Assembly (NCBI RefSeq): GCF_007846095.1
Contig: NZ_VOEI01000001.1
Location: 434,001-498,000, forward strand
From: Mucilaginibacter achroorhodeus
GTDB taxonomy: Bacteria > Bacteroidota > Bacteroidia > Sphingobacteriales > Sphingobacteriaceae
Reading direction: 5' to 3'
DNA: 64,000 nucleotides
Translations under genes and position numbers: made by a program
Notes under the pieces: generated by a model
Database searches by the model: none
Told to the model about the DNA's origin: nothing
What the model saw: the letters and a program-made list of their open reading frames with translations, nothing else
Shown: piece after piece, positions 24,790 through 36,072 of the stretch
How positions within the stretch are numbered: position 1 is the stretch's first letter
Layout: every line of letters begins with the position of its first letter

Positions 24790-24855
24790 ATCGTTTAATT
24801 TCGGAAATAACAATACTCAATTGGAAGCTAAGTATCACACTTCCGAAATAAACTG

Positions 24856-24928
<73 letters not shown>

Positions 24929-24984: not shown

Positions 24985-25060
24985 ATGTTTTTATTTCTCT
25001 TTTAAAAGAACCACCCTTGGGCTTTGTGCGGTGTGTTTAAGACCTCTCCGAAAGGGATTG

Positions 25061-25090
25061 CAAATCTACAAAAAATTAAACCCCTGCAAA
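25061..25090 (-). promoter_or_regulatory. Promoter of the tRNA-tuf-secE-nusG-rpl-rpo operon
   Basis: On the minus strand a perfect -33 TTTG (25087-25090), an 18-base spacer and a perfect -7 TAGATTTG (25061-25068) match the Bacteroidota housekeeping promoter. It follows directly after the hpf terminator and leaves a leader of about 125 bases before the first tRNA. The bases after the -7 box closely match those at the tRNA-Gln promoter. Confidence 0.7.
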
Positions 25091-25099
25091 ATATTTTTA

Positions 25100-25132
25100 C
25101 AAAAAAAATCGGCAGGCTTTTGGCCTGCCGAT
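25100..25132 (-). terminator. Intrinsic terminator after hpf
   Basis: A perfect 10-bp stem (25108-25117 with 25123-25132) with a 5-base loop is followed on the minus strand by eight T. It lies 30 bases after the hpf stop and ends the rpsU-xerC-hpf transcript just upstream of the tuf operon promoter. Confidence 0.92.
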
Positions 25133-25161
25133 CATAACGAATTTTTCGTTTCTGTATATGC

Positions 25162-25509
25162 TTAAAAATCATCCTCTTCCGAAACAAGCGCTGCTTTTTT
25201 AGCAGCTTCGGCAGCAATAGATTTTTTTGTTTTGTATTTCTCAATTTGCTTCCTCAGGCTCTCAACCGCCAGGTCGGTAGCCTCTTCAAAGGTTTTGCAC
25301 TGCTCCTTAGCAAACATCTGCAAGCCCGGCAGCGTCAGCTTTATTTCCGATATCTTGTTGGCCTCATCATCTACATTTTCCAGTTTTAAATAAACTTCTC
25401 CGCTTACTATCTTGTCAAAAAACGTCTCCAGCTTATCTGCCTTTTTCTGTATAAAGTCCAGTAATTTCTGATCTGCGGTGAAATGAATTGATTGCACTGT
25501 AATTTTCAT
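25162..25509 (-). CDS. hpf: Ribosome hibernation promoting factor, short form
   Basis: A 115-residue protein of the HPF/RaiA (YfiA) family that binds in the 30S decoding centre and stores ribosomes as inactive particles in slow growth. The fold is read from KITVQSIHFTADQKLLDFIQ, then GEVYLKLENVDDEANKISEI and the basic helix ATDLAVESLRKQIEKYKTKK. The dimerisation domain of long HPF is absent; an Ala/Lys-rich acidic-ended tail follows instead. It starts 12 bases after xerC. A strong Shine-Dalgarno (AGGAGG at 25514-25519) precedes the ATG, which is rare in this phylum. Confidence 0.93.
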   Translation of the reverse strand: MKITVQSIHFTADQKLLDFIQKKADKLETFFDKIVSGEVYLKLENVDDEANKISEIKLTLPGLQMFAKEQCKTFEEATDLAVESLRKQIEKYKTKKSIAAEAAKKAALVSEEDDF

Positions 25510-25513
25510 TTTT

Positions 25514-25519
25514 CCTCCT
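25514..25519 (-). promoter_or_regulatory. Strong Shine-Dalgarno of hpf
   Basis: The minus strand reads AAAAGGAGGAAAAATG. The AGGAGG core sits only 4 bases from the ATG, a short but workable spacing. Most genes in this window show no such site. Confidence 0.65.
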
Positions 25520-25521
25520 TT

Positions 25522-26433
25522 TTATGCCTTTGGATGGGCTTGTTTATAAATAGATTTGAGTCTCTCAACAGAATTGTGCGTGTAAACCTGCGTTGCGCTT
25601 AAGTTTGCATGGCCGAGCAGTTCTTTTATTGCATTAAGGTCGGCACCTTTATTTAAAAGGCTGGTTGCAAAAGTGTGCCTAAGCACGTGCGGGCTCTTTT
25701 TATCTTGTGTTGATATGTAGGAAAGATACTTTTGCACGGTTAAATAAATAAACGCCGGATATGCGGCGGCTCCTTTATTTGTAACGATAAAGGTTAAGGA
25801 ATTGTTATTAAAAATTTCACTTTTCTTAACCTCTCTATACCGTTCAATAAGTGCCAATAGTTCGGTATTAAGGGGTATTATCCTCTGTTTGTTGCGTTTA
25901 CCTAAAACTTTAATGGTCTTTTCGCGGGTATCTATGTCCCCGTCCTTTAACCCTAAAAGTTCGGCAAGGCGCATGCCGGTACCAAACAACATTTCAATGA
26001 TCATTTTATCTCGTAAACCGGCAAAGTCATTACTAAATATGGGTGCGGTGCCATCATCCATCCTGCCATCAAGCAAAGCTGTCATTTTATCGGCTTCAAC
26101 AACTACAGGTAAACTCTTAGTTACTTTAGGCGCTGTAACTTTAGCGGTAGGGTTTGCAGTTACCTTCCCGCGTTGCAGTAAAAATTTAAAATACTTACGC
26201 AGCGTAGCCAGTTTACGGTTAACCGAACGCGGGCTGATACCTTCGTCCATTTGCTTAACCATCCAGTTACGAATGTCATGATAAGTTATTTCTGCCGGGT
26301 GTTTGGTGGCAAGATCTTCGCCGGGATGCAAAAATTGGAAAAATTGCTGAAGATCGCCTTCATACGCGGTAACGGTATGCGGTGAGTACCTTTTTTCGTT
26401 ACGGATATATTGTATGAAATCGGCTAAAAACAT
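25522..26433 (-). CDS. xerC: Tyrosine recombinase XerC
   Basis: A 303-residue site-specific recombinase that with XerD resolves chromosome dimers at dif. The N-terminal SAM-like core-binding domain is seen in FIQYIRNEKRYSPHTVTAYEGD. The catalytic residues are present: Arg in GTGMRLAELLGL, the HVLRHTFATSLLNKGADL box with His and Arg, LLGHANLSATQVYTH with the third His and the nucleophilic Tyr. I chose ATG at 26433 because the earlier start at 26454 adds only seven residues before MFLADF. It lies between rpsU and hpf; no phage or integron is near, so this is the chromosomal Xer protein. Confidence 0.92.
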   Translation of the reverse strand: MFLADFIQYIRNEKRYSPHTVTAYEGDLQQFFQFLHPGEDLATKHPAEITYHDIRNWMVKQMDEGISPRSVNRKLATLRKYFKFLLQRGKVTANPTAKVTAPKVTKSLPVVVEADKMTALLDGRMDDGTAPIFSNDFAGLRDKMIIEMLFGTGMRLAELLGLKDGDIDTREKTIKVLGKRNKQRIIPLNTELLALIERYREVKKSEIFNNNSLTFIVTNKGAAAYPAFIYLTVQKYLSYISTQDKKSPHVLRHTFATSLLNKGADLNAIKELLGHANLSATQVYTHNSVERLKSIYKQAHPKA

Positions 26434-26526
26434 AAAAACTATTTGAACACCCAAGTAAATTGAATGTACAAATAGTTTTTTTATGCTGACAAGAAATTTA
26501 TAAAATTCTTTATCTAATGAAAAGAA

Positions 26527-26718
26527 TTAAACAGTTTCTTGGTTTAAACCTTGTTTGTAGATAGCGTGTTTAACCACGTGCCTGCGAGTAACAGATTTCT
26601 TTTCGAAAGCCTGACGACTGCGTAGTTCTCTTAAGACACCAGTTTTCTCAAATTTCTTTTTAAAGCGTTTTAATGCTTTATCTAATGATTCTCCGTCTTT
26701 TACGTTGATAATGATCAT
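26527..26718 (-). CDS. rpsU: 30S ribosomal protein bS21
   Basis: A 63-residue basic protein: MIIINVKDGESLDKALKRFK, then RELRSRQAFEKKSVTRRHV. In Bacteroidota bS21, with bS6 and bS18, holds the 3' end of 16S rRNA so that the anti-Shine-Dalgarno is hidden. The gene itself carries a full Shine-Dalgarno, fitting the published idea that it is controlled by the amount of bS21 on ribosomes. It leads the operon rpsU-xerC-hpf. The xerC start is 93 bases downstream. Confidence 0.95.
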   Translation of the reverse strand: MIIINVKDGESLDKALKRFKKKFEKTGVLRELRSRQAFEKKSVTRRHVVKHAIYKQGLNQETV

Positions 26719-26728
26719 AATCCCAAAT

Positions 26729-26776
26729 ACCTCCTTTCAGGGACGTCAAAGGTAGAAAAATGTTTTTAATATTGAA
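26729..26776 (-). promoter_or_regulatory. rpsU promoter and strong Shine-Dalgarno
   Basis: On the minus strand TACCTTTG (26747-26754) matches the -7 box, with TTTC 19 bases upstream as a near -33 element. Further down, AGGAGGT (26729-26735) lies 10 bases before the ATG and is complementary to the 16S rRNA 3' end. This is the clearest Shine-Dalgarno in the window. Confidence 0.65.
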
Positions 26777-26820
26777 ATACAATATTTTATATTTTTTGAC
26801 GGAAGCAAAATAATCCCGCT

Positions 26821-27190
26821 GTCAGTCTGAGCTTGTCGAAGACTTCATCAAGTGAAGAGTGTGGTTCGACAGGCTTACCATGACTCAAATGGATTATCAG
26901 TCTGAGCTTTTTGAAACGTATAAAAGCGAAAAGTGGTTCGACAAGCTCACCATGACAATAACAAAAATGATCAAAGTGTCAGTGTTATCTTGTCGAAGAG
27001 CTATTGAAGCAAAAAGTGGTTCGACAAGCTCACCATGACTCAAGTAGAGTGTCAGTCTGAGCCTGTTGAAGACCTGTTGAAGCGAAGAGTGGTTCGACAG
27101 GCTCACCATGACAATAAATAATCAAAGTGTCAGTCTGAGCCCGTCGAAGACCTATTGAAGCGAAAAGTGGTTCGACAAGCTCACCATGAC
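26821..27190. repeat. Array of five palindromic intergenic repeats
   Basis: Five units of 59-64 bases (26821-26884, 26897-26955, 26978-27039, 27051-27111, 27129-27190) each begin with a GTCAGTCTGAGC-like end and finish with TTCGACAAGCTCACCATGAC. The inner parts TGAGCTTGTCGAA and TTCGACAAGCTCA are reverse complements, so each unit can fold into a hairpin. This repeat is common in Bacteroidota genomes. Frames through it give the well-known false peptides with MVSLSNH and GELVEP. It fills the gap between rpsU and the gene ending at 27200. Confidence 0.92.
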
Positions 27191-27199
27191 AGACTTAAA

Positions 27200-27895
27200 T
27201 CAATCAGCCGCCGTGGTCTTAAGGCCTTGTGGTGCACGCTTGTCAGCCGGCATTGCCATAAATTTCTTGTAGCTATCATTAATGTAAACAGCCATTGACT
27301 GTCTATCGTTGCTGCGCAGGAACTTATAACTTGGGCGGAACATGGTCATGAAGTTTTCAAGTTCAACACCTTTAAGCGGCACTATGCTACCCACGTAAGC
27401 CGGACTAAAAGCATCGTCGATGGCACGTTGTTCGGCTTCGGTCTGGAAATATTTTTTAAGCCTGCGGGCGCGCTTGCCCTCGCCGCTAAACCATGTTGAG
27501 GGCGATAACACATATACCTTACTTTTCTCGTAAACCTCCGGGTACTCAAGCCTCGGATTAAATGGTGCACGTGTAGCGGTTACATTAACCTCGCTCAATC
27601 TTATCATCTGAGAAGCCATCTCAATGCGTTTTGGCCTCATATCTATCACATACAATGTATCGGCAGTATATCCGGGAGAATTAAAGATCAGGGTATGGCC
27701 TGTTGCTGTCTTGATATCGAAATTCCCGTTCTTATCTGTGATACTCACCTGTTTGGTATTGTTGTCCCTGATAAAAACGTTATCAAGACGGGTACCACGG
27801 CCTGCTTCATAAACAGTTCCTTTAAGGGTGTTTTGGGCTTTAGCCATCTGCACAAATACAATAAGAGCTGCGGCAAGGAATAATATCTTCTTCAT
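27200..27895 (-). CDS. Secreted carboxypeptidase regulatory-like domain protein
   Basis: The 231 residues begin with a signal peptide (MKKILFLAAALIVFVQMAKA); the frame is open upstream but the signal fixes the start. Residues 22-105 form a CarboxypepD_reg-like beta-sandwich (TLKGTVYEAGRGTRLDNVFI, then TDKNGNFDIKT), the same type found at the N-terminus of SusC-like receptors. The rest has no domain I recognise; it contains a conserved-looking AFSPAYVGSIVPLKG segment. Likely periplasmic or outer-membrane attached. It lies downstream of the M1 peptidase terminator, so it probably has its own promoter. Function unknown. Confidence 0.7.
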   Translation of the reverse strand: MKKILFLAAALIVFVQMAKAQNTLKGTVYEAGRGTRLDNVFIRDNNTKQVSITDKNGNFDIKTATGHTLIFNSPGYTADTLYVIDMRPKRIEMASQMIRLSEVNVTATRAPFNPRLEYPEVYEKSKVYVLSPSTWFSGEGKRARRLKKYFQTEAEQRAIDDAFSPAYVGSIVPLKGVELENFMTMFRPSYKFLRSNDRQSMAVYINDSYKKFMAMPADKRAPQGLKTTAAD

Positions 27896-27966
27896 GGCTT
27901 TAAATAATAGCTTATCATATAAACCTGCTAAAGGTTGTAAAGGTTTGCCAATAAACCGCCGTAACA

Positions 27967-27997
27967 CAAAAAAACCCGGCTTTAACCGGGTTTTTGT
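27967..27997 (-). terminator. Intrinsic terminator after the M1 peptidase gene
   Basis: AAAACCCGG and CCGGGTTTT form the stem (27971-27995) around a short loop, with A-rich sequence on the left that reads as T-run on the minus strand. It begins 5 bases after the peptidase stop. Confidence 0.88.
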
Positions 27998-27999
27998 AA

Positions 28000-29970
28000 T
28001 TATTTCTTCCAAACGTTGTTGTCAGAGTTGTAATCAGGAGATGTTTTGTCCGGATCTACCGTTACAGATTTGATCTCTTCTGTTGACGGGAATTTGGTGG
28101 TGAAGGTGGTGTTACGCTCCCATATTTCAACAGGCAGCTTAACGCGCTCAACCTTGCCACTTACAGTTTTCACCTCAAGCGTAGTAGGGAAAGCCATTTT
28201 ATCCAGGTTATCCAAGGTGATCAGTGCACCTTTTGATGGATCGTTATCAACGTACTTAACATCGCGCACGCCAACGTCCAGTCTCCAGTTATTTACAAAC
28301 CAGCCTCTCCAGAACCACTGCAAGCTTTCGCCGCCAACGTTTTCCATAGTACGGAAAAAGTCATCAGGTGTTGGGTGCTTAAACGCCCAGCGTGCAACAT
28401 AGGTGCGGAAGGCATAATCAAAGCGCTCAGGGCCTAAAATGGTTTCGCGCAGCATGGTTAAACCCATACCCGGCTTAAAGTATAACAATATGCCATTGTT
28501 CATTTCTTTAAGGTTTTCAGGATTGCTCATCACCGGCTCCAACTCAGGGCGTGTTAAATACGCGCCAATTTTTTGCATATCACGCCCTTTGCTTGCGTAC
28601 TCGCCGTTATTAAAATCTGCAGTGCTAAGCGTATTGATAAAGGTATTGAAACCCTCATCCATCCAACCATAAAGGCGTTCGTTTGAGCCAACTATCATCG
28701 GGAACCATGTATGGCCAAACTCGTGATCGTTTACACCCCATAAAGAACCTTTAGTTGCTTTCCAGCTACAGAAAACAATCCCAGGATACTCCATACCACC
28801 AACTACACCGGCTACTGCGGTGGCAGCAGGGTAAGGGTATTCAAACCATTTTTTTGAGTTATACTCTATAGATTTTTTTACGTACTCGGTTGAGCGCCCC
28901 CATGCGTTGTTGCCATCGCTCTCAACAGGGTAAGCAGATATTGCAGTAGATTTTTTACCACTTGGCAGGTCCATCTTAGCGGCATCGATAATAAATGATG
29001 CTGATGAAGCCCATGAAGCATCACGTGCATTTTTTATTTTAAAGTGCCAGGTTAATTCTTTTTTACCTGCAGGGCGCGAAGCAGGGTTAGTTACCTCAGA
29101 TGCCGAACGGATAACAACAGTTTGTTCGCTTTTTTCTGCAGCACCCCAACGCTTAATTTGCTCTGGTGTGTAAACCTCCTGTGGGTTTTGCAACTCACCT
29201 GATGCTACCACAATGTGATTGGCAGGTGCGGTAATGCTCAGGTCAAAATCGCCGTACTCCAGGTAAAACTCACTTGGGCCAGTGTATGGCAGCATGTTCC
29301 AGCCTTGTACATCATCATAAACATACATGCGTGGATACCATTGCGCAACGGTGTAGATCTTACCGTTCTTAGTATCCTGAATACCTGTACGATCTGAACC
29401 ATAGTTAGGCACCACAAAAGAATATTCGATAGCCAGCTTAACCTGGCCGCCGTTTGCTGCTACTGCCTGCGGCAGCATTATCTGCATACGGGTATCGTTG
29501 ATGGTGTATTTAAGTTCGGTACCTGCGCCGCCTTTTGCGCCTACAAGTTTCACCGATTTAATGTTATATCCACCTTGCGTAAGATCGCCACGACCGCCAT
29601 TACGGCTACCTGCCGGCGGGATGATAGCTTGGCCGCGTGAGTCTTTTTTGAAAAGATTTTGATCTAACTGCATCCACAAAAAATCAAGCTTCTGCGGGCT
29701 GTTGTTGGTATAACTTAAAACTTCAGAACCGACAACCTCGTTGGTTTGGTCGTTCAATTTTGCTGACAATTGATAGTCGGCACGGTTTTGCCAGTACTTT
29801 GGCCCCGGCTGTCCGTCTGCCGCACGAAAATCCGATCCGTTTTTGGTATAGAAAAATGGCGCGAACGCATCGTGATAATTATAGTTGCTTGCAGGGGCCT
29901 GCTGGGCCTGGGCAACACCACTAACAGCCATAACAGCCAGTATGCTGCCGGCAATCAATTTAAGTTTCAT
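28000..29970 (-). CDS. M1 family zinc metallopeptidase (gluzincin)
   Basis: The 656-residue protein starts with a signal peptide ([22 protein letters not shown]). The zinc site HEFGH is at about residues 416-420 and the third ligand Glu lies 19 residues further in WMDEGF, the exact M1 spacing. The exopeptidase motif appears as [11 protein letters not shown]1 aminopeptidases cleave N-terminal residues from peptides; secreted Bacteroidota members are thought to use external peptides. The start is chosen from the signal peptide, not the longer open frame to 30024. A large palindrome lies 35 bases upstream of the start. Confidence 0.9.
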
Positions 29971-30004
29971 AATGTTTAGTAATGATTTAGTAAAAACAAA
30001 GAGC

Positions 30005-30059
30005 AAGTATACACAAATAAACATTTGTGTATACTTATCAAATACTTGTGTAATAAGTA
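30005..30059. promoter_or_regulatory. Perfect 14-bp inverted repeat upstream of the M1 peptidase gene
   Basis: AAGTATACACAAAT (30005-30018) and its exact reverse complement (30023-30036) are separated by 4 bases. A third, weaker element follows (TACTT and AAGTA at 30043-30059). On the minus strand TTTG then 19 bases then TATTTGTG resembles a promoter overlapping the palindrome, so an operator is likely. A hairpin terminator for the upstream ArsC-like gene is the alternative. Confidence 0.55.
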
Positions 30060-30099
30060 AATTACCTATAATTTAATAGAAGAGATCTTAAGAAGGCCT

Positions 30100-30444
30100 T
30101 TACTTCAATTCGCGCTCATAAACGGCTTCGTCAAAACCGAAAAACAGGAAATCGTCCTTTTCTATAACCGGGCGTTTGATCATGCTGGTTTTCTCCTGCA
30201 GCAGTTTTAATGCATCATCTTTTGTTTTAATACTTTCTTTAACTGGCGGGGCAAGCTGTTTCCAGGTGAGGCCCTGCTTATTTAAAAACTTTTCATAGCC
30301 TGCCTTTGCGTCCCACTCCTCCAGCTTCTCTTTGCTGATGCCCAGTTTTTTAAAATCATGAAACTCGTAGGAAACATGATTAGCCTTAAGCCAATCCAGC
30401 GCTTTTTTTACCGTATTGCAATTGGTTATACCGTATACTTTCAT
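30100..30444 (-). CDS. ArsC/Spx-family protein (YffB-like)
   Basis: A 114-residue thioredoxin-fold protein of the ArsC family: VYGITNCNTVKKALDWLKAN holds the single N-terminal Cys at position 9, followed by the family's HDFKK and the Arg-containing IKRPVIEKDD. The CxxC of Spx is absent (C-N-T-V). Members of the YffB branch have no proven arsenate reductase activity and may act with glutathione or other thiols. The stop is 12 bases from nothing else on its left side except the M1 leader; the receptor gene lies 12 bases upstream on the same strand, so they may share a transcript. Confidence 0.82.
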   Translation of the reverse strand: MKVYGITNCNTVKKALDWLKANHVSYEFHDFKKLGISKEKLEEWDAKAGYEKFLNKQGLTWKQLAPPVKESIKTKDDALKLLQEKTSMIKRPVIEKDDFLFFGFDEAVYERELK

Positions 30445-30456
30445 GCGGCTAAAATA

Positions 30457-32850
30457 TTAATTTTTAGCACCGCCCGATGAATCATCGTTGTTTATTCCGC
30501 GTTGGTTTTTCTTGATGGATGAACTTAATGCACCAAACTTGTAATTAAAGCCGATACCAATTGATCTGAAGTTCTGGTAATTAAAGGTTGTGGTGTTAAA
30601 GGTATTGGTGCGGGTATAAAAATCAAGCTTAATAAATTTGCTGAATGGCCCATTGGCATAAAGTGACAGTGTGGCTTTTTTATTCAGGAATTCTTTTGAT
30701 GCGTTAAAGCCGTAACCCAGGTAATAGTTATCCACGCCCTGTAACAACACATAGCGGCTGTCGAAGCCTACGTTAACCCCTACCCTGTAACCTTTTTCAA
30801 ACTTGTAGCTGCCATTGGTGAACACATGGCCCTGGTAGCCGCTGTTGGTATAAAATTCGTTATCAAAAGTACCTTTAAGCCAAACGCGCATTAGCTCGGC
30901 GTTTACGTTAACGTTGAATTTCGATGTTATAGGATACTGCCAGTTAAGGTCGAGCGCCAGGTTCTTGTTTTTGCCCACGTTGGCAAAGGTAGTGGTGGTA
31001 ACAGTACCATCTACACTGGTTAAATTCTGTATGGTGTTATTGGCAAAGGAATAACTCAGGCTAATATTTAATGATCCCTTTGCAAAGTTGCCATAGCTCA
31101 ATTCAAAATTGTTGTTAACTGCCGGGCGAAGCGCCGGGTTACCTCTGCTGATAAATTTCGTATTGGTGCTATCCACAAAAGGGTTTAACTGAAAAATGCC
31201 CGGGCGTTGGATGCGCTGCGTAAAACCAAAGTTAACGCTGGCATTCTTTAGCGAGCGCTGCATAGAGAACGACGGCACCACATTGGTATAAGACTGATCT
31301 AAATTGGTACCGTTAGAAATGAAGTTCGCATTGATCTCCGTACGTTCATAACGTGCACCTGCTTTGAAGGTCCACTTGGTTAATTTAAGCGTGTAGGAAT
31401 TGTATGCGCTGTAAACATTCTGATGGTAATCAAAATCATTGGCCTGGCCGCTGTTGTCCATGTAGTTCCCGGTTGCATCCTTAAGATCGGTATGGAACCT
31501 GCTAAAGTTTTGGCGGCTAATCATTTTACCACCAACTTCCACATTTAGTTTTGTAAGCGGGTGTACATAATCAAGCTGGGCAGTATGTTCCTTAGCGCCT
31601 GCATCATTCAACTGCCTGAAATCTGTTGTATTGCCCGGCGATACATAGTTTAATGAGTTATTCCTGTTATCGCTGTATTTATAAGATGCGGTTAGCAAAC
31701 GTTCTTTGTTGCCTTTAAAGCCCAACTGGTAGTTTAACCCCGCATCAGCGCCGCGGTATACGCCGTTACCGTTGTTGGTGGTAGTGTAACTATCTGCTAC
31801 ATTATTGTTGGTTTCGGTAGTGTATTGCGTAGAACCATTTTCATTACTGCCGCGGTAGTAGTTAAACGTACCGGTGAAAAGGTTTAAAGTATCTGCCTCA
31901 AAGCTTACCTCGGCGCTTGCGTAGTTATTATTGCCGGTACCATATCTGCTTCCGTTTTGCACAACTGATGATGGCTGTAATAAAAAGTCTGTCTGGTTAA
32001 AGAAATCAGTAGGGCGTTTTGGCCTGTGGCCGGTACCTCCGTAAGCGTTAATACCAAACTTCCCCTTCTTAACGGTAAGGTTTAAGTTTGCCCGTGGCCC
32101 CCATATAGAGTTGTAATTAAGGTTGACAGAACCATTGTAACCCTCATCGCCTTTCTTTTGAGTGATGATGTTGATGATACCTGCCAAACCCTCCGCATCA
32201 TATTTAGCAGGAGGGGTGGTTATCACCTCTATCTTTACGATGTTGGTACCCGGCATGGCCTTCAAAATATCAGATGGGTTGCGCGCCATCAGCGCCGACT
32301 CTTTACCATTCAGCAATATTTTGTAGTTACCGCTTCCGCGCAGTTTAATGTTATCATTACCATCCACAGAAAGCAAAGGCACTTTACGGATCATATCCAA
32401 CGCGGTAACCGACTTTGCTTCCGGGTCTGCCTGCACGTCGTAGCTCAGACGGTCAACCTCTTGCTTCATCAAGGGTTTGGTGGCAACTACCGAAACTTCC
32501 TTAAGCTGATTATGGGTTGGCGCGATCAGGATCCTGCCCAGATCAAGAGCTTTTTTATCCGCAGTAATATTGATGATCTTAGTTGCATAACCTATATAAA
32601 CCAGGTTAAGCTTATAGGCCTTCGGGGCAATACCGGTCAATTCAAAGGTGCCGTCATCCTTACTAAGCATACTTTTGACAGGTGCATTAGTTGCAGCATC
32701 GGTTAATGCAACGGTAACATAGCCGAGCGGTTTATTAACCGCAGAATCAATTACAAGGCCTTTTATAGAAATAATTTGGGTAGCAGACTGTGCGAGTGAT
32801 AAGGTTACACAAAAGCAGCATAACAAAGCTGCCAGAAAGGATTTTTTCAT
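30457..32850 (-). CDS. TonB-dependent receptor-like outer-membrane beta-barrel protein
   Basis: A 797-residue outer-membrane protein with signal peptide MKKSFLAALLCCFCVTLSLA. Residues about 28-115 are a carboxypeptidase-like domain (SIKGLVIDSAVNKPLGYVTV), then a plug-type region (ALDMIRKVPLLSVDGNDNIK, KMPGTNIVKIEVITTPPAKY), then a long barrel rich in alternating aromatic residues that ends FNYKFGALSS before a charged tail. The end is Lys/Asn/Ser-rich rather than closing on an aromatic residue. The substrate cannot be read. Barrels of this type (OMP_b-brl_3) are not always true transporters. Confidence 0.85.
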   Translation of the reverse strand: MKKSFLAALLCCFCVTLSLAQSATQIISIKGLVIDSAVNKPLGYVTVALTDAATNAPVKSMLSKDDGTFELTGIAPKAYKLNLVYIGYATKIINITADKKALDLGRILIAPTHNQLKEVSVVATKPLMKQEVDRLSYDVQADPEAKSVTALDMIRKVPLLSVDGNDNIKLRGSGNYKILLNGKESALMARNPSDILKAMPGTNIVKIEVITTPPAKYDAEGLAGIINIITQKKGDEGYNGSVNLNYNSIWGPRANLNLTVKKGKFGINAYGGTGHRPKRPTDFFNQTDFLLQPSSVVQNGSRYGTGNNNYASAEVSFEADTLNLFTGTFNYYRGSNENGSTQYTTETNNNVADSYTTTNNGNGVYRGADAGLNYQLGFKGNKERLLTASYKYSDNRNNSLNYVSPGNTTDFRQLNDAGAKEHTAQLDYVHPLTKLNVEVGGKMISRQNFSRFHTDLKDATGNYMDNSGQANDFDYHQNVYSAYNSYTLKLTKWTFKAGARYERTEINANFISNGTNLDQSYTNVVPSFSMQRSLKNASVNFGFTQRIQRPGIFQLNPFVDSTNTKFISRGNPALRPAVNNNFELSYGNFAKGSLNISLSYSFANNTIQNLTSVDGTVTTTTFANVGKNKNLALDLNWQYPITSKFNVNVNAELMRVWLKGTFDNEFYTNSGYQGHVFTNGSYKFEKGYRVGVNVGFDSRYVLLQGVDNYYLGYGFNASKEFLNKKATLSLYANGPFSKFIKLDFYTRTNTFNTTTFNYQNFRSIGIGFNYKFGALSSSIKKNQRGINNDDSSGGAKN

Positions 32851-32940
32851 GTAGTGATTTAGGTATATAAGACGCGCGAAGATACACGTCCGTTGCACCC
32901 AAAAACTCACTTTTTTATCAAATATTGTGTAACAAAAATG

Positions 32941-33501
32941 CTACTTGTTAAACTTGGTCATGGTTAGCTCGGTACCAATAGTCACAAAGCTTTTGATCAT
33001 CTCTATCGATCTGTCTATCAGTGCCGGAAGCTCCGGTTTTTCATCATCATCAAAGCCGCTTAGTACATAGTCAACCTGGCGGCCCTTTGGGAAATTATCG
33101 CTGATACCAAAACGAAGCCGGGCGTATTCGTTGTTGCCTAAAATTGCCTCAATGTTTTTTAAGCCGTTATGCCCGGCAGCGCTGCCCTTGGGTTTTAAGC
33201 GAAGCGTACCCAAAGGCAAGGCAAGGTCATCAACAATTACCAGTACATTTTGCACCGGTATTTTTAACTCTTTCATCCAATGGTTTAGCGCCTTACCGCT
33301 TAAATTCATGTAGGTGGTGGGTTTTATCAGATGCAGGCTGCGGCCTTTGTAATTAACCTCGGTGTAGTAAGCCAAACGCATGTTATAGAATTTTGCATTC
33401 TCCTGCTTAGCATACTCATCCAAAACCATGAAACCTATATTATGGCGTGTATCGGCATATTCGGGCCCAATGTTACCGAGACCTACGATCAGATATTTCA
33501 T
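32941..33501 (-). CDS. pth: Peptidyl-tRNA hydrolase
   Basis: Pth splits peptidyl-tRNA that drops off ribosomes and so recycles tRNA. The 186-residue protein begins MKYLIVGLGNIGPEYADTRH, with the catalytic His and Asn in TRHNIGF; further motifs are PTTYMNLSG, DDLALPLGTLRLKPKGSAAG and GHNGLKNIEAILG. The longer frame upstream is translated repeat DNA. The start lies just below a GC-rich hairpin (33512-33525); a GGAGG precedes the ATG closely but is part of that repeat. Confidence 0.94.
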   Translation of the reverse strand: MKYLIVGLGNIGPEYADTRHNIGFMVLDEYAKQENAKFYNMRLAYYTEVNYKGRSLHLIKPTTYMNLSGKALNHWMKELKIPVQNVLVIVDDLALPLGTLRLKPKGSAAGHNGLKNIEAILGNNEYARLRFGISDNFPKGRQVDYVLSGFDDDEKPELPALIDRSIEMIKSFVTIGTELTMTKFNK

Positions 33502-33504
33502 ACC

Positions 33505-33930
33505 CCCTCCGCCCCCTGAAGGGGGAACCTTTTTTAAATATTTACTGAAATAGGGTTTTATACCCATAATTGTGCGCAAAAGTAGTAAAAAACAGGAACG
33601 CTACGTGCGCGATTCTTTCTTCTGCGCAAAGAGGATGATAATATCTTTAAATTACACAACACACCCCTACCCCCTCTAAAGAGGGGATTCTTGTAACCCT
33701 CTTTTCGCGTAGCGAAGAGAGGGTCGTCGAGCGTAGCAATGACCGGGTGAGTCAACAGCGACGAATTTTACTCACCCCGTCCCGATTGCTATCGGGATGC
33801 GCGACCCGCTCTGCTCCGCAAAGATTGTGAAAGAAAGCCTCTCCCCAAACCCCTCTCCAAGGGAGAGGGGCTTTAGAACAATTCTTTCTAAAGTCTCCCC
33901 TTTCGGGGGAGATTTAAAGGGGGCTAAACA
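33505..33930. repeat. Cluster of GC-rich palindromic repeats between pth and rplY
   Basis: About 490 bases without a gene hold at least six hairpins: 33512-33525, 33671-33686, 33696-33724, 33781-33796, 33850-33870 and 33894-33912. Cores include CCCCTCT/AGAGGGG and CCCGAT/ATCGGG. These CCCCT-type palindromes are common intergenic repeats in Bacteroidota. Two open frames in the region (33558-33755, 33772-34032) show no protein-like composition. Confidence 0.85.
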
Positions 33931-33931
33931 A

Positions 33932-33963
33932 AAAAAGCGGTGACAAATGCCACCGCTTTTTCT
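33932..33963 (-). terminator. Intrinsic terminator after rplY
   Basis: AGCGGTG (33936-33942) pairs with CACCGCT (33951-33957); on the minus strand a T-run follows. It lies 30 bases after the rplY stop. Confidence 0.88.
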
Positions 33964-33991
33964 TTCATTTCCCTTTAGAGAACAAGGCAAA

Positions 33992-34570
33992 TTACTTGCC
34001 TCTGTTTTCTTGTTCTGCCTGACGTAGCGCACGTGAAGTAGTTACTGAAACTACAGTATCTTCTTGTGCGTTGGTGATAGTAAGGTTAGGAACTTTGATG
34101 TCGCTAACACGTACTGATTTACCTACCTCTAACGACTCGATGCTAACTTCGATGTTATCCAAGTGATCTTTCGGAAGGGCTTTAACACGCAGTTTGCGTA
34201 ATTTCTGAACTAATTTACCACCCACTTTAACACCCGGAGATGTACCGGTTAATTTAACAGGGATCTCGATAGTTACCGGTTTGTTTTGATCCAGCTCTAA
34301 AAAGTCGATGTGGATAAGTTGCTCAGTTAACGGATGATATTGTGCATCCTTAATAATAGCCTGAGTTTTTTTTCCTGCAACTTCAATGTCGATGAAATGA
34401 ACAACCGGAGTGTAAATTACGGTTCTCAAATCAGCTGCGGACACTGCAAAGTGGGTCTGGGTAGCACCACCGTAAAGTACTGCAGGCACTAAGCCTTGGT
34501 AACGCAGTTCTTTAGCGTCTCTTTTCCCTACGTTCTCTCTTGGAGAACCGCTAATAGCAATTGATTTCAT
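33992..34570 (-). CDS. rplY: 50S ribosomal protein L25/general stress protein Ctc
   Basis: The 192-residue long form binds 5S rRNA with its N-terminal domain (MKSIAISGSPRENVGKRDAK, then LVPAVLYGG) and carries the extra C-terminal TL5-type beta domain (PVTIEIPVKLTGTSPGVKVG, VSIESLEVGKSVRVSDI). It lies downstream of prs, the common prs-rplY(-pth) order in bacteria, here with a repeat array between prs and rplY and a repeat cluster between rplY and pth. Confidence 0.94.
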   Translation of the reverse strand: MKSIAISGSPRENVGKRDAKELRYQGLVPAVLYGGATQTHFAVSAADLRTVIYTPVVHFIDIEVAGKKTQAIIKDAQYHPLTEQLIHIDFLELDQNKPVTIEIPVKLTGTSPGVKVGGKLVQKLRKLRVKALPKDHLDNIEVSIESLEVGKSVRVSDIKVPNLTITNAQEDTVVSVTTSRALRQAEQENRGK

Positions 34571-34600
34571 TTATTTATTTAATTTATTTGTTAAGTCCGT

Positions 34601-34698
34601 GGTTCATAGATCATAGTTCATGGTCTAATTCTCACGAATATTTTTATTTACTTTAATTCAGGCGTCCGGCTATGAAACATTAGCCATGAACTATAACC
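34601..34698. repeat. Heptad-phased inverted array (GTTCATA type), copy 2, between prs and rplY
   Basis: The left arm at 34601 has units GGTTCAT, AGATCAT, AGTTCAT and GGTCTAA in 7-base phase. The right arm (34670-34697) has CTATGAA, ACATTAG, CCATGAA and CTATAAC. It shares unit sequence with the array upstream of miaA 27 kb away. The spacing between arms is about 40 bases. Confidence 0.78.
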
Positions 34699-34702
34699 TT
34701 TT

Positions 34703-35647
34703 CTACTCCACCTTAAACAACTGGCTTATCGAGCCATGTTCATTCACGTTCATTATCGCTTTAGCAAACAGTTCGGCAGTTGATAATACCCTTATCTTAC
34801 TGCTTTGTTGTTTAAGCGGGATGGTATCGGTAACGATCAGCTCTGTTAAAGCCGAGTTCTCGATAGTTTCATACGCTTTGCCTGATAACACCGGGTGCGT
34901 ACAAACTGCCCTTACAGAACGTGCGCCACGCTCCATGATCAAACCTGCAGCTTTTGCCAAAGTACCTGCCGTATCACAAATATCATCGATCAACACAATA
35001 TCCTGGTCGGTAACATCACCAATAACGGTCATGCTTTCTATCTCGTTAGCGCGTTTACGGCGTTTATCGCAAATTACTACCTCTGCATTAAAATACTTGG
35101 CAAAGTTACGTGCCCTGTATGATCCGCCCATATCAGGCGATGCAATGGTGAGGTTTTCTAAACCAAGGCTTTTGATGTAAGGCACAAAAATGATAGAAGC
35201 ATCAAGGTGATCTACCGGTACATCAAAAAATGCCTGTATCTGCGCTGCGTGCAGGTCCATGGTCATGATACGGTGGATACCCGCAGCAACCAACAGGTTG
35301 GCTACCAGTTTTGAACCGATCGCTACACGTGGCTTATCCTTCCTGTCCTGCCTTGCCAAACCAAAATAAGGGATAACCGCAGTGATGTAGTGTGCTGATG
35401 CACGGCGTGCGGCATCAACCATCATTAACAGTTCCATTAAATTATCGGCAGGTGGGTTGGTTGATTGGATAAGGAATACATCACAACCGCGAATAGATTC
35501 ATCAAAATGCGGCTGGTATTCGCCATCGCTGAAACGCGAAATGGTTACGCTACCCAGATCTTTACCGTATGATGCGGCAATGTTTTTAGCAATAGCGGTT
35601 GATCCCGATCCTGCAAATAACTTAACTGTATTAAACTGTAAAGGCAT
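34703..35647 (-). CDS. prs: Ribose-phosphate pyrophosphokinase
   Basis: Prs makes PRPP from ribose-5-phosphate and ATP for nucleotide, NAD, His and Trp synthesis. The 314-residue sequence has the flexible-loop region, DLHAAQIQAFFDVPVDHLDA as the cation/ribose-phosphate site, and the PRPP loop DDICDTAGTLAKAA. The segment GLARQDRKDKPRVAIGSKLV is typical of class I enzymes. It is followed by rplY and preceded by tRNA-Gln 143 bases upstream on the same strand. Confidence 0.95.
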   Translation of the reverse strand: MPLQFNTVKLFAGSGSTAIAKNIAASYGKDLGSVTISRFSDGEYQPHFDESIRGCDVFLIQSTNPPADNLMELLMMVDAARRASAHYITAVIPYFGLARQDRKDKPRVAIGSKLVANLLVAAGIHRIMTMDLHAAQIQAFFDVPVDHLDASIIFVPYIKSLGLENLTIASPDMGGSYRARNFAKYFNAEVVICDKRRKRANEIESMTVIGDVTDQDIVLIDDICDTAGTLAKAAGLIMERGARSVRAVCTHPVLSGKAYETIENSALTELIVTDTIPLKQQSSKIRVLSTAELFAKAIMNVNEHGSISQLFKVE

Positions 35648-35789
35648 TTTGATTATTAGATTAAGATAGTTTCCTAAATAGTTCTGTCTTTAATCGCTTA
35701 GTATATCAACCCCTATAAAAAACTTCGGATTTCTTACTTTCAGTTCGTTTTACCGAAACATGAAAATCAGAAATCCGATTATTCTTAAG

Positions 35790-35860
35790 TTGCCCGACCA
35801 GGATTCGAACCTAGACAAACGGTACCAAAAACCGTCGTACTACCATTATACTATCAGGCA
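35790..35860 (-). tRNA. trnQ: tRNA-Gln(TTG)
   Basis: Minus-strand cloverleaf: acceptor TGCCTGA/TCGGGCA, anticodon stem ACGGT/ACCGT with loop TTTTGGT giving TTG, T loop GGTTCGAATCC. CCA is not encoded. It has its own clear promoter just upstream. Confidence 0.95.
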
Positions 35861-35896
35861 ATCTCCCCCGGTTTGAAACCTCCCCGAAATGGAATG

Positions 35897-35926
35897 CAAA
35901 TATAGGTCGATTTTTGAAAAGTCAAA
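35897..35926 (-). promoter_or_regulatory. Promoter of tRNA-Gln
   Basis: On the minus strand a perfect -33 TTTG (35923-35926), an 18-base spacer and a perfect -7 TATATTTG (35897-35904). The 18 bases after the box (CATTCCATTTCGGGGAGG) closely match those after the -7 box of the tRNA-tuf promoter, while the spacers differ. Confidence 0.72.
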
Positions 35927-36072
35927 AGCAAAATTTAAAAAAATATTATGCCGGTTTGTAAGTGCCTCATAATCCGTTAAAAATTGTTAAGGTTTTAGCT
36001 TTTACAGGGGATTACATAATGTTTTTACTAATTTCGGCTGCTTAACACCAGTTGTATCTGTAATAATCAGTG

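Follow-up and report, generated by a model that had tools for sequence, protein, structure and literature searches.

The DNA analysed here is a stretch of 64,000 nucleotides from Mucilaginibacter achroorhodeus (contig NZ_VOEI01000001.1, positions 434,001 to 498,000; hereafter the window). Its minus strand carries the promoter of an operon with genes for tRNA-Thr, Tyr, Gly and Thr followed by tuf (hereafter the tuf operon) and the promoter of a transfer RNA (tRNA) gene for glutamine, tRNA-Gln. These two promoters share a block of 26 bases that begins with the -7 box and would reach across the transcription start into the RNA. The upstream part of this block, the word CANTCC directly after the -7 box TAnnTTTG, is a start-site element found at translation genes throughout this genome and enriched in the class Bacteroidia. 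We regard it as moderately probable that these promoters belong to a class serving the translation machinery, in which a C-rich, discriminator-like start-site element is often joined by a hairpin at the 5′ end of the transcript.

The tuf-operon and tRNA-Gln promoters

The features of both loci are listed below, all on the minus strand; the -33 boxes and the boxA-like word were assigned by sequence.

25087..25091, minus strand: -33 box TTTTG of the tRNA-Thr-Tyr-Gly-Thr-tuf promoter, 18 bases from the -7 box
25061..25068, minus strand: -7 box TAGATTTG of the tuf-operon promoter; mean top-base frequency 0.96 in 67 distinct motif-picked sequences
25055..25060, minus strand: start-site element CAATCC of the tuf operon; probable start near 25056 by the placement in PMC9723704 (available in part)
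25043..25055, minus strand: candidate start-anchored hairpin CCTTT-CGG-AGAGG in the first RNA bases of the tuf operon; weak predicted fold (-2.4)
25000..25012, minus strand: boxA-like GGTTCTTTTAAAA in the tuf-operon leader
24855..24928, minus strand: tRNA-Thr(tgt), first gene past the promoter, then Tyr, Gly, Thr, tuf, Trp, secE and nusG
35923..35927, minus strand: -33 box TTTTG of the tRNA-Gln promoter
35897..35904, minus strand: -7 box TATATTTG of the tRNA-Gln promoter; mean top-base frequency 0.99 in 48 distinct sequences
35891..35896, minus strand: start-site element CATTCC of tRNA-Gln; probable start near 35892; CANTCC in 46/49 parsed orthologues
35881..35894, minus strand: candidate start-anchored hairpin TTCC-N6-GGGA of tRNA-Gln; weak predicted fold
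35789..35860, minus strand: tRNA-Gln(ttg)

Read from the -7 box, the two 26-mers are TAGATTTGCAATCCCTTTCGGAGAGG (window 25043-25068, tuf operon) and TATATTTGCATTCCATTTCGGGGAGG (35879-35904, tRNA-Gln). An earlier note on this DNA had described about 21 shared bases out of 26 next to unrelated 18-base spacers. The identity is in fact slightly higher (22/26), and both spacers have 18 bases, which agree at three positions. Both sites possess the -7 box TAnnTTTG, the -33 pentamer TTTTG and the 18-base spacer expected for promoters of the primary sigma factor. Over the 20 bases beyond the block, seven agree. Within the block, 12 of the first 14 and 10 of the last 12 positions are identical, and the first 14 positions are common to many other translation promoters. 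The block is two joined things, a wider start-site element, TAnnTTTG-CANTCC, and the words TTTCGG..GAGG behind it. It probably spans the transcription start, judging from the placement of TAnnTTTG at -12 to -5 in Flavobacterium psychrophilum (PMC9723704, available in part).

A merged pattern, built from the two sites themselves, matched twice in the window at up to three mismatches, compared with 0.07 expected matches. Across the whole genome, only the tuf-operon and tRNA-Gln sites had fewer than three mismatches, and four further sites had exactly three; the reversed control gave seven within three mismatches.

The start-site element precedes translation genes

Across the genome (4.28 Mb, 14 contigs), the strict pattern TANNTTTGCANTCC has 16 exact matches, and its reversed control has none. 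Twelve of these are located at tRNA starts, while the remaining four precede the genes for S12 (rpsL), an S1-domain protein, L13 (rplM) and an M24 peptidase. With the S1-domain gene taken as rpsA and the M24 peptidase gene taken as map, all 16 matches lie at translation genes, the map-type gene counted. Within the set of 28 tRNA starts that have TAnnTTTG within 200 bases, exact CANTCC was found at 12, CA at 21 and CC within positions 4-7 after TTTG at 21. For comparison, CANTCC followed none of 85 background TAnnTTTG sites upstream of other open reading frames in a 400 kb sample plus the window. It followed 2 of 70 further intergenic TAnnTTTG sites, which were the tuf-operon and tRNA-Gln promoters themselves. 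The background was defined by TAnnTTTG alone because a strict search with -33 plus -7 boxes yielded too few sites, namely 12.

A looser pattern, TANNTTTGCANNCC, gave 41 genome matches versus 6 reversed. It brings in starts of ribosomal RNA (rRNA) and rpsF, and it also precedes non-translation genes that by eye resemble those of HU, carB and ferredoxin. In a pool of 112 non-redundant translation starts, with most sets chosen by TTTGC, [TC]CC occupies positions 4-6 after TTTG in 86 cases, versus 3/61 in the background. The element is present on rRNA, tRNA and ribosomal protein genes.

The proposal of the earlier note that the shared block constitutes a start-site element of stable-RNA promoters therefore holds for its upstream half with CANTCC. 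As a general stable-RNA element the full block fails by the refuting condition named in that note (other tRNA and rRNA promoters lacking it), because 26/28 tRNA starts and four rRNA starts lack an in-register copy: TTTCGG stands in register only at the tuf operon and tRNA-Gln, and TTTCGG..GAGG in none of the four tandem rRNA starts of this genome that were read. A third TTTCGG, at tRNA-Pro(ggg), is out of register and extends into the tRNA itself.

rRNA starts and spread across Bacteroidota

The rRNA leader of this genome (L298, at the end of contig C10, positions 634-985) contains four tandem -7-like boxes upstream of the 16S gene, each followed by CAGCC. In nine relatives with genomes in 1-2 contigs, each of the 26 rRNA operons shows one or more CAn[TC]CC starts no further than 900 bases from the 16S gene. 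There, the base next to TAnnTTTG is C at 35 of 45 distinct sites, CAn[TC]CC follows at 33 and CANTCC at 18.

A phylum survey covered 118 genomes. The 30 genomes of the same class, Bacteroidia, gave 387 element matches versus 47 in the reversed control, with one genome having none, and more than five matches were found in 8 of the 88 genomes of other classes. The element is enriched in Bacteroidia and weakly outside. When one locus per genome was taken, 28 class loci carried the strict motif, 16 of them at translation genes and two at contig ends. The 16 comprise eight loci of tRNA or transfer-messenger RNA, one rRNA locus, the genes for IF-1, L34, RF-1, S8 and L21, and two for enzymes of the MiaB/RimO type. 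A 29th motif locus (L217), at a tRNA, comes from another class. For L195 and L203, the family search gave no gene name.

The second half of the block in orthologous loci

Orthologues of both promoters were compared in relatives. The tRNA-Gln set consists of loci from the 59 of 60 genomes with a match, 10 of which were unparsed (L381, L384-L392). For tuf, 110 loci were scanned and 86 had the motif, counted anywhere in the locus, with some genomes represented twice and with one pick (L269) that may not be the tuf promoter. The other 24 belong to Sphingobacterium (22) and Mucilaginibacter (2). The pattern TAnATTTGCA[ATG]TCC was not found near the hibernation-factor gene in L221, L227 and the 22 Sphingobacterium loci (L273-L282, L284-L286, L288-L292, L294-L297).

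In both cases the 12-base second half is more conserved than the following bases. The mean top-base frequency is 0.77 over this stretch versus 0.58 over the next 10 bases in 48 distinct tRNA-Gln sequences, and 0.87 versus 0.55 in 67 distinct, motif-picked tuf sequences. The 49 parsed tRNA-Gln loci have CANTCC in 46, TTTCGG in 31, TTTC[GA]G in 34 and GAGG in 6, and the 86 motif-picked tuf loci have TTTCGG in 34, TTTC[GA]G in 61 and GAGG in 71. What is mostly kept is CC followed by GG, in 44/49 tRNA-Gln loci at a distance of 4-8 bases and in 84/86 tuf loci 4-11 bases apart. The agreement in TTTCGG..GAGG is most readily explained by a loose pairing rule that both loci follow, to which chance may have added.

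Predicted pairing anchored at the start

The triplet GGG occurs at positions 9-30 in 12/24 starts of this genome, in 17/22 rRNA starts of relatives and in 3/61 background sites; the corresponding numbers for CCC in the same sets are 1, 1 and 8. Predicted hairpins include GTCCTTA-AAA-TAAGGAT at rpsL, TCCCAAT-TGT-ATTGGGA at rpsA and, at the tuf-operon start of another family (L334), GTCCGTTA-GAAA-TAGCGGAC. Within the class, many starts of tuf operons show pairing of this shape.

Folding was stronger than in shuffled sequences for the tRNA starts of this genome (p = 0.009, n = 16, which are those of the 28 starts whose leader has 18 or more bases), for its ribosomal protein, map and rRNA starts (p = 0.0098, n = 8) and for the rRNA starts of relatives (p = 3e-7, n = 33), with p = 0.36 for the background. 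A swap of head and tail lowered the pairing in the ribosomal protein, map and rRNA starts (p = 0.0125), in relatives' rRNA starts (p = 0.003) and in a pool of 46 (p = 0.001; background 0.36); class rRNA starts alone also passed this test (p = 0.026). Helices of at least four pairs were predicted at 16/22 tuf-operon starts of the class (mean of 200 shuffles 9.1, maximum 14) and at 23/45 class rRNA starts (mean of 200 shuffles 11.1, maximum 18). The class tuf set was derived from 30 loci of 80 genomes, from which L311, L315 and L329 (single tRNA) and L321 (without TAnnTTTGC) were dropped. The class rRNA set contained 29 loci besides the one of this genome, taken from 37 genomes with 16S, and showed no promoter in L338, L351, L359 and L363.

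Across the 112 starts, the helix most often has its outermost 5′ base at positions 3-5 past TTTG, with fractions of 0.21, 0.28 and 0.23. Shuffle means at these positions are 0.13, 0.10 and 0.08 (maxima of 100 shuffles 0.20, 0.17 and 0.16), and the background fractions are 0.03, 0.05 and 0.02. Because positions 3-5 correspond to about -2 to +1 in the F. psychrophilum register (PMC9723704, available in part), the hairpin would begin at the start of the RNA. All these probabilities are rough: selection by TTTGC or by the motif underlies most of the sets, and the sequences are related to one another. Folding energies of single loci were mostly non-significant and only the pooled tests are significant. 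A search against Rfam with the window and six loci returned tRNAs only. Over sets of promoters, start-anchored pairing is in significant excess, but it is not so at the tuf operon and tRNA-Gln alone, nor is it universal.

Discussion

Promoters of the primary sigma factor in Bacteroidota have been described by the consensus -33 TTTG / -7 TAnnTTTG (PMC7366714, PMC9723704, both available in part). The promoters studied here share both boxes and their spacing and differ by CAnYCC(C) added right after the -7 box, an addition that the available parts of these papers do not mention. Three variants of the consensus, SM1-3, appear in the available part of PMC9723704, and CAnYCC(C) could be among them. 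No C-rich start element or start hairpin in Bacteroidota was found in a search of titles and abstract openings, with most subscription journals and supplements lying outside this search.

In E. coli, rrn P1 and other stringently controlled promoters carry a GC-rich discriminator. As there, a G/C-rich stretch would lie between box and probable start on rRNA, tRNA and ribosomal protein genes. Different from it, the element is a C-rich, nearly fixed word within another sigma system, and a response to guanosine tetraphosphate (ppGpp) or to growth rate is suggested by its gene set and position. To our knowledge, a following RNA hairpin is not part of the GC-rich discriminator. Within the block, the weight rests on the C-rich start word, and its closest counterpart is most likely this discriminator.

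The reading that we favour would work as follows. Ordinary -33/-7 boxes of the primary sigma factor would be followed directly by CAnYCC(C) across the probable start, and this element would act as the GC-rich discriminator does at stable-RNA promoters of E. coli: the open complex would be short-lived, and initiation would hence respond to the supply of nucleotides and to ppGpp. Many of these transcripts, a large share, have a G-run behind the 5′ C-run, which could give a small hairpin anchored at the start, with a possible role in promoter escape or in the protection of the 5′ end. TTTCGG..GAGG would be one weak version of this pairing (pyrimidine arm, short loop, purine arm), which both loci may have reached under the same constraint, and would not be a separate protein-binding word. 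A more far-reaching and tentative version assumes that RNA polymerase, throughout Bacteroidia, marks transcripts of the translation machinery with a two-part start module. A C-rich word would make initiation sensitive to ppGpp and nucleotides, and a co-evolved hairpin formed by this word would couple promoter escape or the fate of the 5′ end to growth rate.

Several results weigh against the reading that we favour. Some excess of the element is seen in the 88 genomes of other classes too, with 192 matches versus 86 reversed, and 10 of the 28 strict-motif loci of the class precede other genes. Upstream of the relatives' 16S genes, 12/45 distinct TAnnTTTG sites are not followed by CAn[TC]CC, some C-rich forms such as TAACCCC being included in these 12, and in the rRNA leaders of the wider class CAn[TC]CC stands at only 26/56 distinct TAnnTTTG sites (Cnn[TC]CC at 38/56). 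The best of the 378 pairs among the 28 tRNA starts reached at least 10/12 in 34 of 1000 composition-preserving shuffles, so that the second half alone is only mildly beyond chance. At the two loci themselves the predicted hairpin is no better than in shuffles (tRNA-Gln p = 0.57, tuf operon p = 0.79). The swap test failed for the tRNA leaders of this genome (p = 0.44), for all its starts together (p = 0.097), for class tuf-operon starts (p = 0.17) and when both class sets were combined (p = 0.057). Helices of at least four pairs are missing at 22/45 class rRNA and 6/22 class tuf-operon starts, and 11/86 tuf loci have no predicted fold, eight of them representing one Pedobacter variant. Finally, the sequences are related and not independent.

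Two other explanations are possible, each with a minor share of our belief. According to the first, CANTCC would only be a mark of very strong primary sigma factor promoters in this genome, raising their strength, with no special link to growth-rate or stringent control and no selected hairpin. The HU-, carB- and ferredoxin-like genes behind the looser TANNTTTGCANNCC and the 10/28 class loci before other genes fit this view, whereas the strict form is found at translation genes in 16/16 cases in this genome and pairing anchored at the start is above the shuffles in three sets as well as in the 112-start pool. The second, about equally doubtful, is that only the promoter half is meaningful and that the second half is a chance resemblance of two A/T-rich leaders with G-runs. 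The frequency of equally similar pairs in the shuffles and the non-significant hairpins at both loci speak for it. Against it stand the conservation of both stretches beyond that of the following bases in orthologues, and CC then GG in 44/49 tRNA-Gln loci.

The hairpin could also be compared with E. coli ompA, a stable mRNA with a 5′-terminal stem-loop. The likeness is a stem-loop at or near the 5′ end; in the present case the predicted hairpin is also placed on precursors of stable RNAs and is coupled to a promoter element. That it is a transcript stabiliser of this kind, acting against pyrophosphate removal and decay and unrelated to initiation, we consider unlikely. Predicted hairpins do head the rpsL, rpsA and rplM transcripts, but they also head rRNA and tRNA precursors, in which the stability of the leader should matter little, and several tandem rRNA starts have a candidate hairpin of their own.

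The antitermination module of rRNA leaders consists of boxB and boxA. A boxA-like GTTCTTT lies in the tuf leader and, by eye, in rRNA leaders, downstream of the start-proximal candidate hairpin, whereas candidate hairpins are also present at starts without a nearby boxA-like word, for instance tRNA-Gln. GTTCTTT[TA] is found at most 160 bases after TTTG in 55/86 orthologous tuf loci. The tuf-leader GGTTCTTTTAAAA resembles boxA and presumably functions as such, which suggests a Nus-type antitermination of this operon. It is improbable that the tuf operon and tRNA-Gln have in TTTCGG..GAGG a sequence-specific RNA or DNA element of their own (for example a protein site or a Nus-type leader part with boxA): TTTC[GA]G in 61/86 motif-picked tuf and 34/49 tRNA-Gln loci, similar words at a few starts of tuf operons in other genera (L306, L312, L331) and the boxA-like element further along the tuf leader would fit it, but GAGG is present in only 6/49 tRNA-Gln loci, several class tuf-operon starts keep the pairing shape in other letters, e.g. 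GTCCGTTAGAAATAGCGGAC (L334), the other 26 tRNA starts of this genome have no in-register copy, and the 36-base tRNA-Gln leader has no boxA-like word by eye.

Within the literature searched, there is little on how Bacteroidota tune the synthesis of rRNA and tRNA, and the group departs from the models in its sigma factor and its promoters. A short word whose exact copies in this genome stand at translation genes in 16/16 cases, and which is enriched in the class, would permit a direct test of growth-rate control in this group and could be used to construct promoters linked to growth. Should the start-anchored hairpin be under selection, promoter sequence and transcript structure would, unusually, reside in the same bases.

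Neighbouring genes and further observations

The tuf-operon promoter is located after the gene for an S30AE protein of the ribosome-hibernation type. By eye, a terminator-like hairpin with a T-run follows this gene (window ~25110-25140), and about 20 bases separate its end from the tuf -33 box downstream. Downstream of tRNA-Gln there is, by eye, a terminator-like hairpin and then a gene for ribose-phosphate pyrophosphokinase. Matches to TAAGCCCTCCCTTTCGGGGAGG (L033, L034) were considered as -7 promoters and rejected, as they are by eye short inverted repeats of the terminator type.

At L045 (C7:470072-470156), the -7 box TACTTTTG is followed after 5 bases by tRNA-Ser(tga), whose primary transcript may thus be nearly leaderless. 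At C7:671224-671462 (L019, L038), tRNA genes for Gln(ttg), Ile(tat) and Pro(tgg), two of them lower-scoring, lie close together and are possibly carried by a mobile element. Extra, lower-scoring tRNA-Cys(gca)-like genes are present at L042 (C9:61656-61814) and L046 (C11:193131-193201).

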